This document shows positions 1 through 42,974 of a stretch of 42,974 bases of DNA, piece by piece. The notes under the pieces were generated by a model. That model was not told the DNA's origin and ran no database searches. It saw only the letters and a list, made by a program, of their open reading frames with translations. Position 1 is the stretch's first letter. Every line of letters begins with the position of its first letter. The stretch lies in the NCBI GenBank assembly GCA_017466125.1, contig JAFTUS010000122.1, positions 1-42,974 of the forward strand. Reading direction: 5' to 3'. The translations under genes and the position numbers were made by a program. The DNA comes from Lentisphaeria bacterium (GTDB lineage: Bacteria > Verrucomicrobiota > Lentisphaeria > Victivallales > Victivallaceae).

Positions 1-14
1 AAAAAGAGCGTAGC

Positions 15-80
15 GGCCGAACGTCGGCCTCGGTAGTGGTCGGCTGTCGCCCCGTGCGGGGCTCTCGAGCCTCCGGGGCG
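15..80. repeat. Cluster of GC-rich palindromes next to the left 67-bp repeat
   Basis: Three hairpin-capable palindromes sit side by side: GGCCGA-acg-TCGGCC at 15-29, GCCCCG-tg-CGGGGC at 49-62 and GGCTC-tc-GAGCC at 60-71. In addition CGCCCCG at 48-54 can pair with CGGGGCG at 74-80, so alternative foldings compete. They could form a transcription end or a structured repeat tail. No gene is seen in 1-209. Confidence 0.6.
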
Positions 81-140
81 TTGAGCGGACGAAGCATTCC
101 GAAGCCCCTGTAAAAATCAGTCAACCTTTCGTACACAGCC
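74..140 (-). repeat. 67-bp repeat, left copy (inverted relative to the copy at 42863-42929)
   Basis: Read on the minus strand, this segment matches 42863-42929 at 63 of 67 positions; the core TTGACTGATTTTTACAGGGG is identical in both. It lies 69 bp past the stop codon of the leftward AlbA_2 gene (210-1682) and points in the same direction as that gene, just as the right copy follows the GH16 gene. It ends in CGCCCCG, which can pair with a nearby CGGGGCG. It may be a dispersed 3'-intergenic repeat. Identity is seen directly; the role is inference. Confidence 0.9.
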
Positions 141-209: not shown

Positions 210-1682
210 TTAACTTTCAGTTTTATTTGGTCTGACAATAACCCATTTCCCGTTTTTGTCGGAACCAGTGCGGTCTATCAGCTTGAAATCCTCGCGTAAT
301 TGCTTCAAATACACACGCACCGTTTCTCTGCTTTTTCCTATCTGATCAGCAATTTGCTGATAGGATATATGGGGGTTCGCCTTTAGCAGCTCCAACACCT
401 GAGCCAATCTTACAGGCAGATTTTCTGTGTTTACAGGCAGATTTACAGGCAGATTTACAGGCAGATTTCCTGTATCAACCGCCCTGCGCCATTTGCCGGA
501 TTCCATGAGTTTGGCTTCAAAAACGGTGATACGGTCTATGGTAAAAACAGCCTTGCCGTTACCGTTTATTTCCAACTCCCGCTGAACTTCCGGGATGCCG
601 TGATTAAGCATATTGACATAACCGAGGATTTGCATACCTTCGGCAACTGCAGGATTGCGGTAGTCATTCACTGTCGGGAAGTTTTCCGGTCTGGCTTTGC
701 CATACAACCCGCCGTGATTGATGATTTCGATTCGATCCGGATACTGATAAAACTTGATCGGAGCATTGCCGTTGTAATCCCGGTGCATAATTGCGTTCAT
801 CAGGATTTCACGCAGTGCCCACTTGGGGTAATTGCAAACGATTTCCTCCCGCAACGCTGAAACCGGAATCGGGCGTTTCTGAACGATAGCCATATCAATA
901 AAAGCATCCAGTTGCGGCAGCATTTCACAGAGATTACCCTGAAACATCCGCTGGTTCATTATTGCCGAAGCATTGTCCATACCATCCCATCTGACATACT
1001 GGACATAAGCTCCGGGCATGAAGCGGCGGGGATCTGTACCGAAAAGCAGCAGTGCCGCATTGGTCGGACAATCATAGACCTTGCTGTAAAGCCGCAAAGA
1101 AATCATCCATTCCTTAACAGAACGGTTGTTTTTAGATACGATTCCCGCATCAACGGCTTTGGGCAGATAGTATTTGGTAAACAAATCCTGATCAATATCT
1201 TCCAGCGTTGCCTGACAACAGGGCGTATTATCCATGGTCGGAAAATTGTAACTGCGGCGTTCGGTCAGAATCTCTTCTTCCTCTCTGGTGGCCAAATCTT
1301 TTCTGGGACCGATACGGATGAAAGTTCTCCCCCGATAACGGACGGGCGGCAGATTGGAAGGTGTTACTTCTACAACCAGCACATCGCCATCATCGAAAGA
1401 AAAAACTTCCACGCTCATAACCGGCATCGGCAAAATATTTCCGTCAGAACGGATTGCAGATATTTTCTTCAACAGCTCATCAGTAACTTTCAATCCGGAA
1501 CGTTTGCCATCATCAGTAATGCCAATCAAAAGATACCCGTTCAATTTGCTGTTGGGCATATCATTAGCAAAAGCACAGATCGCCTCACAGAATTTGTCTA
1601 TATTGGTAGTAGAAACGGTCTTTTCAATCCGGAAAGTTTCGACACTTGTTATCAACGCTTCAAGTTCTTCTCTTGTGATCAT
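210..1682 (-). CDS. AlbA_2 (Schlafen-type) putative transcriptional regulator, RecG-like helicase-annotated family
   Basis: This 490-residue protein has the layout of the AlbA_2 / HATPase_c_4 family. The N-terminal AlbA_2 domain (about residues 10-135) contains LNGYLLIGITDDG. A central GHKL-like segment (about 285-370) holds EILMNAIMHRDYNG and IEIINHGGLYG. A winged helix (about 425-485) contains ISYQQIADQIGKSRETVRVYL. Such proteins are often annotated as regulators or, misleadingly, as RecG-like helicases; no helicase motifs are seen. The start has AAAGGAG upstream. The linker at about 405-420 holds a tandem LPVN repeat from a 12-bp DNA repeat. The gene stands alone with its own promoter and a cluster of TTGAA/TTCAA half-sites, suggesting autoregulation. 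The target is unknown; a role in defence or stress is possible but unsupported here. Confidence 0.8.
   Translation of the reverse strand: MITREELEALITSVETFRIEKTVSTTNIDKFCEAICAFANDMPNSKLNGYLLIGITDDGKRSGLKVTDELLKKISAIRSDGNILPMPVMSVEVFSFDDGDVLVVEVTPSNLPPVRYRGRTFIRIGPRKDLATREEEEILTERRSYNFPTMDNTPCCQATLEDIDQDLFTKYYLPKAVDAGIVSKNNRSVKEWMISLRLYSKVYDCPTNAALLLFGTDPRRFMPGAYVQYVRWDGMDNASAIMNQRMFQGNLCEMLPQLDAFIDMAIVQKRPIPVSALREEIVCNYPKWALREILMNAIMHRDYNGNAPIKFYQYPDRIEIINHGGLYGKARPENFPTVNDYRNPAVAEGMQILGYVNMLNHGIPEVQRELEINGNGKAVFTIDRITVFEAKLMESGKWRRAVDTGNLPVNLPVNLPVNTENLPVRLAQVLELLKANPHISYQQIADQIGKSRETVRVYLKQLREDFKLIDRTGSDKNGKWVIVRPNKTES
431..466 (-). repeat. 12-bp tandem repeat inside the AlbA_2 gene (three perfect copies)
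   Basis: TTACAGGCAGAT is repeated three times in tandem (431-442, 443-454, 455-466), with a further separate copy at 410-421. On the coding strand it gives repeated Leu-Pro-Val-Asn in the linker before the winged helix. Twelve bases keep the frame, so copy-number change would lengthen or shorten the linker without breaking the gene. Confidence 0.9.
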
Positions 1683-18971: not shown

Positions 18972-19045
18972 GGCGTGGTAGCCAATCGGTTAGGCAACGG
19001 TCTGCAAAATCGTATAGACCGGTTCGACTCCGGTCCACGCCTCCA
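18972..19045 (+). tRNA. tRNA-Cys (anticodon GCA)
   Basis: The 74-nt sequence folds as a standard cloverleaf. The acceptor stem is GGCGTGG with CCACGCC, the anticodon stem ACGGT with ATCGT around the loop CTGCAAA (anticodon GCA at 19004-19006), and the T arm ACCGG-TTCGACT-CCGGT. The discriminator is T (U73), the known identity base for Cys. CCA is encoded, and a run of eight T follows from 19046, likely ending transcription. It overlaps no real protein gene. Confidence 0.95.
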
Positions 19046-41812: not shown

Positions 41813-41849
41813 AAAAAATCCTCATGTTTTTTATTTTTTTCTCTATAAT

Positions 41850-41878
41850 AATATACTGTTGGAATATTGTTTTTTCAA
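41850..41878 (-). promoter_or_regulatory. Promoter of the frameshifted AraC gene
   Basis: Minus strand: -35 TTGAAA (41873-41878), 17-bp spacer, -10 TATATT (41850-41855). Its -35 box abuts that of the divergent GH16 promoter. Confidence 0.65.
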
Positions 41879-41894
41879 ATATTTCCGGTATATT
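41867..41894 (+). promoter_or_regulatory. Promoter of the GH16 gene
   Basis: -35 TTGTTT (41867-41872), 16-bp spacer, -10 TATATT (41889-41894). The -35 lies back to back with the AraC promoter, so one bound regulator could act on both. Confidence 0.6.
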
Positions 41895-41922
41895 AAAATC
41901 AGGTTCAAAAAAGGAGACCGGT

Positions 41923-42861
41923 ATGAAAAAATTTACACTTGAAGATCACGCAGACAGTTTTCTGCCCGAGGGCAAGGAGTGGAAACTGGTCTGGCACGAT
42001 GAGTTTGACGGTACTGAACTGGACGAAACCAAATGGGGTTTCCGGCTGAATTTCTGGGGACAGCGGCTCAAAACGTTTACGACCGAAGGCGTGGAACTCG
42101 ACGGCAACAGTCATGTCAGACTTCACATGATCAAAAAGGGTGAAGATTACTATTCGCCGCACCTGCAAACCGGTTCTCTGACCTATGATATTCCGAAGGA
42201 CGGCAACGGCTTCTGGCCTTTCGGTGAATATGAGAAGCCGAAATTCATGCACCGCTACGGCTATTACGAGATCCGCTGCCGCCTGCCCAAAAACAAAGGG
42301 TGGCACGCCGCATTCTGGCTTCAGGCTCCCGGCGTCGGTTCACATCCCGACGCCCGTTTTGCGGGGGTGGAATGCGACATTATGGAAAATTACCGTCAGC
42401 ATATCGACGGCAAAATGATGGGCGGCAATATCTGGGGCGGTTACGGCAAAAACTTTGATGTTTCCGGACACTTTCTCTGGGATCACGAAGAGACCGCTGA
42501 CGGCTGGCACTATTACGGCGTGGACTGGTCTCCCGCAGGATATGTTTTTTACGCTGACGGCAAAGAGATCGGCAGAGTTCTGCCCCCTGAACGTGAAGCG
42601 GAGAAAAATATCATCCGGGAAAAACCGGATTCAAAAATCTGGATTTTGCCGGGAAGTACCGCCATCGGACCGGTTTCAGAGGTGGAGCAGTTCATTCTGG
42701 TCTCCACGGAGTGCCACGGTTACCGCGGACCGGGATTTTTGAGCGCGCCTGCCGGACACCCCGCCGGAACTCCTGCACCGGTTCTGAAAGAAGCGGTACT
42801 GCCGGACTATTTTGAAGTCGATCACGTCCGCGTATTCGATCAAATCGAAACAGAAAAATAA
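41923..42861 (+). CDS. GH16-family glycoside hydrolase
   Basis: A 312-residue GH16 enzyme. The jelly-roll start KLVWHDEFDGTELDETKW (21-38) is typical. HRYGYYEIRCRLPKNKGWHA leads to the catalytic motif E150-x-D152-x-x-E155 (VECDIMEN), with E150 the expected nucleophile and E155 the acid/base. The C-terminal YFEVDHVRVFD is the usual last strand. GH16 enzymes cut beta-1,3/1,4-glucans or galactans such as agar or carrageenan; the exact substrate is unclear. The frame is open back to 41824, but AAGGAG precedes the ATG at 41923, and that start gives no signal peptide. So the enzyme may be cytoplasmic or exported otherwise, unusual for GH16. Confidence 0.93.
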   Translation: MKKFTLEDHADSFLPEGKEWKLVWHDEFDGTELDETKWGFRLNFWGQRLKTFTTEGVELDGNSHVRLHMIKKGEDYYSPHLQTGSLTYDIPKDGNGFWPFGEYEKPKFMHRYGYYEIRCRLPKNKGWHAAFWLQAPGVGSHPDARFAGVECDIMENYRQHIDGKMMGGNIWGGYGKNFDVSGHFLWDHEETADGWHYYGVDWSPAGYVFYADGKEIGRVLPPEREAEKNIIREKPDSKIWILPGSTAIGPVSEVEQFILVSTECHGYRGPGFLSAPAGHPAGTPAPVLKEAVLPDYFEVDHVRVFDQIETEK

Positions 42862-42862
42862 C

Positions 42863-42929
42863 GGCTCTGTACGAAACGTTGACTGATTTTTACAGGGGCT
42901 TCAGAATGCTCCGTCCGCTCAACGCCCCG
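42863..42929 (+). repeat. 67-bp repeat, right copy (inverted relative to 74-140)
   Basis: It begins 1 bp after the GH16 stop codon and matches the reverse complement of 74-140 at 63 of 67 bases. Both copies lie just 3' of a gene and run in its direction of transcription. The end of the repeat (CGCCCCG) is also the first arm of the hairpin at 42924-42959. Confidence 0.9.
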
Positions 42930-42959
42930 ATAAAATACGCTGTGCTTTTTTATCGGGGC
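42924..42959 (+). terminator. Terminator-like hairpin after GH16
   Basis: GCCCCGATAAAA (42924-42935) and TTTTATCGGGGC (42948-42959) form a perfect 12-bp stem with a 12-nt loop. No T-run follows, so it may be a structured repeat tail rather than an intrinsic terminator. Confidence 0.6.
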
Positions 42960-42974
42960 ATCGCTCCCGGCGAG

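Follow-up and report, generated by a model that had tools for sequence, protein, structure and literature searches.

The stretch of DNA that we analysed (the window, 42,974 nt) is an entire contig, C101 (positions 1-42974), of a 3.83-Mb genome assembled in 224 contigs. A 67-bp sequence is present at both of its ends in opposite orientation. When 74-140 is reverse-complemented, it agrees with 42863-42929 at 63 of the 67 bases, and this pair (94%) is the top-ranking inverted repeat of the window. Each copy lies downstream of a gene: the right copy begins at 42863, one base past the stop codon of an ORF with a GH16 domain, and the left copy, on the minus strand, begins at 140, 69 nt past the stop codon of a Schlafen/AlbA_2 ORF (Table 1). 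Beyond the shared 67 bp the two copies are unlike, and both are rich in hairpins. The repeat, its place after the two genes and the differing hairpins had been described in a first-pass annotation made from the sequence alone, which had also raised the possibility that the window is a whole contig, and our analysis bears this out. The sole Rfam match within the window is a tRNA gene at 18972-19042. The 77 nt adjoining the left copy (141-217) share 96% identity with sequence flanking another copy (C99:12918); either site and flank could have been duplicated together, or the site itself could be repeated.

Table 1. Features at the two ends of the window, with the basis for each
Feature	Position	Strand	Basis
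Right copy of the probable MITE, first 112 nt; the contig end cuts off the rest	42863..42974	+	sequence, genome search
5' terminal inverted repeat of right copy, GGCTCTGTACGAAACGTTGACTGAT	42863..42887	+	end-pattern search
Presumed 8-bp target site AAAATAAC; includes the stop codon of the GH16 ORF	42855..42862	+	inferred from sequence and duplication length
Hairpin H1 (GCCCCGATAAAA...TTTTTTATCGGGGC), first hairpin of the conserved interior	42924..42959	+	self-inverted match; covarying helix
Left copy of the probable MITE (L070), first 140 nt, read from 140 down to 1; the contig start cuts off the rest	1..140	-	
5' terminal inverted repeat of left copy, GGCTGTGTACGAAAGGTTGACTGAT	116..140	-	end-pattern search
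Alternative interior of left copy, module 2 (GAGGCTCGAGAGCCCCGCACGGGGCGACAGCCGACC...GGCCGACGTTCGGCCGC)	1..73	-	also within other copies and a composite element of another genus
GH16-domain ORF (PF00722), upstream of right copy; flank, outside the element	41824..42861	+	
Schlafen/AlbA_2-domain ORF (PF04326), upstream of left copy; flank, outside the element	210..1682	-	

The two window copies belong to a large family. When the right copy was used as a query against the genome, much as the first-pass annotation had proposed, 130 candidates were returned, 40 of which were scored; these match the query over nearly its full length at 89-100% identity. Judged from copies that lie inside contigs, the element starts with GGCTCTGTACGAAAGGTTGACTGAT and ends with ATCAGTCTATGTTTAGTACACAGCC. 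The terminal inverted repeats are imperfect and about 25 bp long, and the ends of the element are GGCTNTGTACNAAANNTNGACTGAT. With at most one mismatch, the end pattern GTACNAAANNTNGACTGAT has 53 + 54 = 107 matches in the 3.83-Mb genome, and the reversed control has 0 + 0. There are 61 distinct 5' ends, and a core hairpin module (described below) is found in 81 copies at E ≤ 0.001. Copies at contig ends are collapsed, and the true number of insertions is uncertain because an insertion split by a contig break can be counted twice; it is above 60 and probably below 100. Complete copies range from 57 to 472 bp, mostly 275-295 bp, and contain no transposase ORF. Some are deletion derivatives. For example, one of 57 bp (L115) retains little beyond the two ends, and one of 98 bp (L258/L369) has an exact target duplication.

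The sequences that flank the element are duplicated. Among 50 distinct complete elements from several genomes (loci of one MAG under two handles were merged by sequence, and some residual double counting is possible in this number), 21 have an exact 8-bp repeat at both sides and 27 match at seven or more of the eight positions. When the right flanks were permuted, the means were 0.67 (maximum 4) for exact repeats and 1.6 (maximum 7) for seven or more. Exact flank repeats of 5-12 bp peak sharply at 8 bp (n = 21), with no more than 4 at each other length, and the exact duplications are 92% A+T. In this genome alone, an exact duplication flanks only 7 of the 17 complete elements, which counts against the transposon reading; we take the others as older or rearranged copies. 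The second copy of the duplication at the right end of the window would presumably be outside the contig. A search with joined flanks in 40 relatives showed no empty orthologous site; none could be demonstrated because the congeners are too divergent and synteny is lost. A duplication of this fixed length is characteristic of a transposase whose staggered cut spans 8 bp. The terminal inverted repeats, the AT-rich 8-bp duplications, the absence of a transposase ORF, the dozens of intergenic copies in both orientations, the deletion derivatives as short as 57 bp and the contig breaks together lead us to conclude that the 67-bp repeat is very probably the 5' end of a MITE family, a transposon with a structured and exchangeable interior. 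We infer that a DDE-type transposase acting in trans would move the MITE, cutting AT-rich intergenic DNA with an 8-bp stagger. One copy (L061, C88:23298-23606) lies within the T-tract that immediately follows the terminator-like hairpin of a gene, and TTTATTTT is duplicated there. T-tracts that follow such hairpins may be favoured targets.

The interior of the element comes as alternative hairpin modules, and this is why the two window copies are alike over the first 67 bp only. The right copy goes on into H1, which begins the commonest interior, and the left copy goes on into a different hairpin-rich module (GAGGCTCGAGAGCCCCGCACGGGGCGACAGCC...GGCCGACGTTCGGCCGC). Some other copies join both modules, or bear extra hairpins within hairpins B or C. 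The common interior is about 190 nt long and consists of five hairpins (H1, H2, A, B and C) and an outer stem, P1; in this genome it also has a terminator-like GC hairpin with a T-run. Its core is formed by three hairpins: A (TTTCGNN...NNCGA), B (CCAGCG-TTCCGC-CGCTGG) and, after the linker ACCRCG, C (CCGGG...CCCGG). In the core alignment (A1), 93.0% of cells pair and both sides have changed at 10 of 18 pairs. The covariation score of the core is 0.261, versus 0.067 in shuffled and at most 0.072 in slid alignments, the slid control being partly biased because the core structure was read from the aligned sequences themselves. Seventeen interiors from this genus, g2 and g15 were also aligned over their full length; the sequences of both alignments were selected by similarity to the core. 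The full-length alignment supports P1, H1, H2, A, B and C, with 89.3% of cells paired, 59 cells changed on both sides (19.4 when shuffled), and a score of 0.265 versus 0.116 shuffled and 0.025-0.109 slid. Its weakest helix is P1 (77%), which in g2 lies in a shifted register. For one whole element the folding energy is -130 kcal/mol (z = -5.5). Conservation is strong in the core stems and in some of the loops and linkers. The alignments indicate that the fold of the interior is kept by compensatory change across genera.

Searches against Rfam 15, at the gathering thresholds and at E ≤ 1, found only tRNAs, and the interior has no matching family there. Acido-Lenti-1 (RF01687), an RNA named in Lentisphaerae (PMC2864571), is an Rfam family and gave no match, and we reject it as the identity of the element. 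Near the 3' end of the element there is a terminator-like hairpin with a T-run (a scan found 2 sites versus 1.2 in shuffles, which is not clearly above chance), and in other genera T-rich tracts are seen by inspection after the last hairpin. These features suggest that the interior could serve as a one-way transcription terminator or an RNA-stabilising tail. As a folded transcript or as folded DNA, the interior would most likely make insertions tolerable, for instance in one of these two ways, and so help the element to persist. We offer this last proposal with modest confidence, at less than an even chance.

Ends and interiors are distributed differently among relatives. When 60 relatives were searched, the full-length element turned up in no genome but this one, whereas many others had a short interior segment, mostly of 30-60 nt. 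Of 289 genomes sampled across the phylum, 26 have a match to the core model (R1): 25 belong to families f1, f2 and f4 of this order, and the single match outside it is borderline (E = 4.7e-5). Within the genus the core is patchy: it is present in this genome and in G007 and missing from G001-G003, G005, G006 and G008. In two genomes of genus g15 (G194 and G081) the ends are the same and enclose an interior of the same type, and several copies have 8-bp duplications. Genera g9 (G016) and g18 (G331 and G332) have the same ends around other interiors, the homology of very different interiors being judged by eye. The same ends occur with target duplications in other Lentisphaeria genomes, and a public scan for the end sequence gave at least four Lentisphaeria MAGs among the matches listed, from sheep colon and roe deer cecum. 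A search for the terminal repeat in viral contigs gave no match. In family f4 (G046 and G131) the core is a compact A-B-C-D unit of about 95 nt with unrelated flanks, and the end pattern has no match in either genome. Thus, ends and interiors have had separate histories, at least in part. At three loci of G131 (L332, L337 and L338), complete modules are preceded by a few tandem repeats of AAGATTTCGTGCTTCGCA, which is the 5' half of hairpin A, as if the unit had grown by repetition of its 5' end. In G016 (L175, C77), of a different genus, a composite element of about 860 bp has the same terminal repeat at its start and several internal repeats, and likely includes, as judged by eye, a homologue of module 2 of the left copy.

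These distributions raise the question of which part of the element is the real unit. It could be the interior, a REP-like DNA or a non-coding RNA with its own spread in the order, captured by a transposon with terminal inverted repeats in part of f1. The presence of the core in three families, the free-standing unit in f4, the strong conservation of stems, loops and linkers, and the exchanged interiors of g9 and g18 all favor this explanation. However, no mobiliser of such a unit was found, Y1/RAYT genes are missing from several genomes rich in the module, and no empty site was found at which insertion without terminal repeats would be seen directly. We consider it a tentative and rather unlikely alternative. 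Similarly, we can only speculate, with no greater confidence, that there is an order-wide structured family, a chain of three to five hairpins with conserved loops and linkers that is not in Rfam, whose fold is under selection and which moves both inside transposons that duplicate 8 bp and without them, while the transposon ends swap interiors between genera.

Most copies lie between genes, and they occur in both orientations. As scored with a simple and crude ORF caller, 52 of 83 scorable flanks (62.7%) face the 3' end of a gene and 31 face a 5' end (p = 0.03). Because this bias is similar whichever end of the element is considered (33:23 and 16:8), the element does not track gene direction. 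The first-pass annotation had suggested mapping the copies relative to gene ends and had considered a structured tail pointing in the direction of each gene. The mapping confirmed the intergenic placement and revealed only this weak 3' bias, and orientation with the gene is not a rule. The agreement seen in the window is a coincidence combined with the weak bias. A structured 3'-UTR RNA or terminator belonging to each host gene would account for the 3' bias and for the T-run and its terminator-like hairpin close to the element's 3' end, but element and gene show no consistent agreement in direction, positions upstream of start codons are common among the copies, and the target duplications mark insertion. 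We regard this explanation as improbable.

A transposase with the ends of the MITE was not found in the fetched loci or among the ISL3, IS6, IS1595 and Y1 families of this fragmented assembly. The genome has a single ISL3 transposase gene (L121, C176, 1048-2259), downstream of an apparent tRNA gene, with matching ends GGTTCTTCGACGGTTTATGACAG in its flanks; these are unlike the MITE ends, and we reject ISL3 as the source. IS6 and IS1595 genes were not detected. ORFs adjoining terminal repeats were listed as candidates for an autonomous element, and two loci (L175 and L236) were examined in full. The first is a composite of repeats in which no transposase was recognised, and the ORF of the second resembles, by eye, a phosphoesterase. 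The ORF at L222 was taken as a flanking gene on position only. At another locus (L105, C4, 1511-2751), an IS110-family element (PF01548/PF02371) is apparently inserted about 34 nt inside a MITE copy.

REP-type repeats moved by a RAYT (Y1) transposase are a further alternative. REP/RAYT systems have GC-rich hairpins between genes at high copy number; the element is like them in its intergenic GC-rich hairpins, and one Y1-domain gene is present in this genome. The first-pass annotation had thought of a dispersed REP-like 3' element. Dispersed and structured it is, with 40 scored copies and 107 ends, but it has the terminal inverted repeats of a transposon instead. Y1 genes are present in some carriers and were not found in G007, G131, G139, G194 and G033, all rich in the module, and are thus inconsistent as mobilisers. 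REP/RAYT systems are not known for terminal inverted repeats or for target duplications of 8 bp, and the duplications largely refute this very improbable reading.

The first-pass annotation had asked whether the copies, inverted with respect to each other at the two window ends, bound a single large mobile or strain-variable region of 42 kb. This is almost certainly wrong: the window ends are contig ends, and these copies are two of more than 60, at dozens of other places that are often contig ends themselves. A composite transposon that uses two such copies is conceivable. Both window ends lie inside copies and the assembly therefore broke there, as had been suspected. Among 86 listed zero-mismatch ends, 40 have a contig end within 360 nt (5 of the 86 were outside the assessment). 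Lentisphaeria MAGs break at such copies, and in this one at least 40 copy ends run off contigs, which should serve as a warning.

No paper on this element emerged from literature searches that covered MITEs and structured RNA of Lentisphaerae and repeats of Victivallis. As a MITE, the element is of an ordinary type. What is unusual is its well-conserved, structured and exchangeable interior, a chain of hairpins. MITE interiors are usually viewed as leftover transposon sequence. The compensatory changes across genera and the swapped interiors suggest selection on a fold in a bacterial mobile element, and the interior variants are a natural series for tests.

The element resembles several known systems. 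The insertion sequences ISL3, IS6 and IS1595 make 8-bp duplications and have ends beginning with GG. The MITE has the same duplication length and GG... tips, which by analogy suggests a DDE enzyme of the ISL3/IS6/IS1595 sort, although the ends of the ISL3 copy in this genome differ. The BOX elements of pneumococcus are built of modular, exchangeable internal units with strong secondary structure; we liken the element to them in modularity and structure, and claim no relation in sequence. Some bacterial MITEs contain RNA secondary-structure motifs (review, PMC2229807). Like Correia/NEMIS, RUP of pneumococcus, ERIC, YPAL/RU-2 and CIR, the element described here is short and non-autonomous, has terminal inverted repeats and is present in many copies; it differs from those MITEs in its 8-bp target duplication and in a multi-hairpin interior of about 190 nt that covaries between genera.
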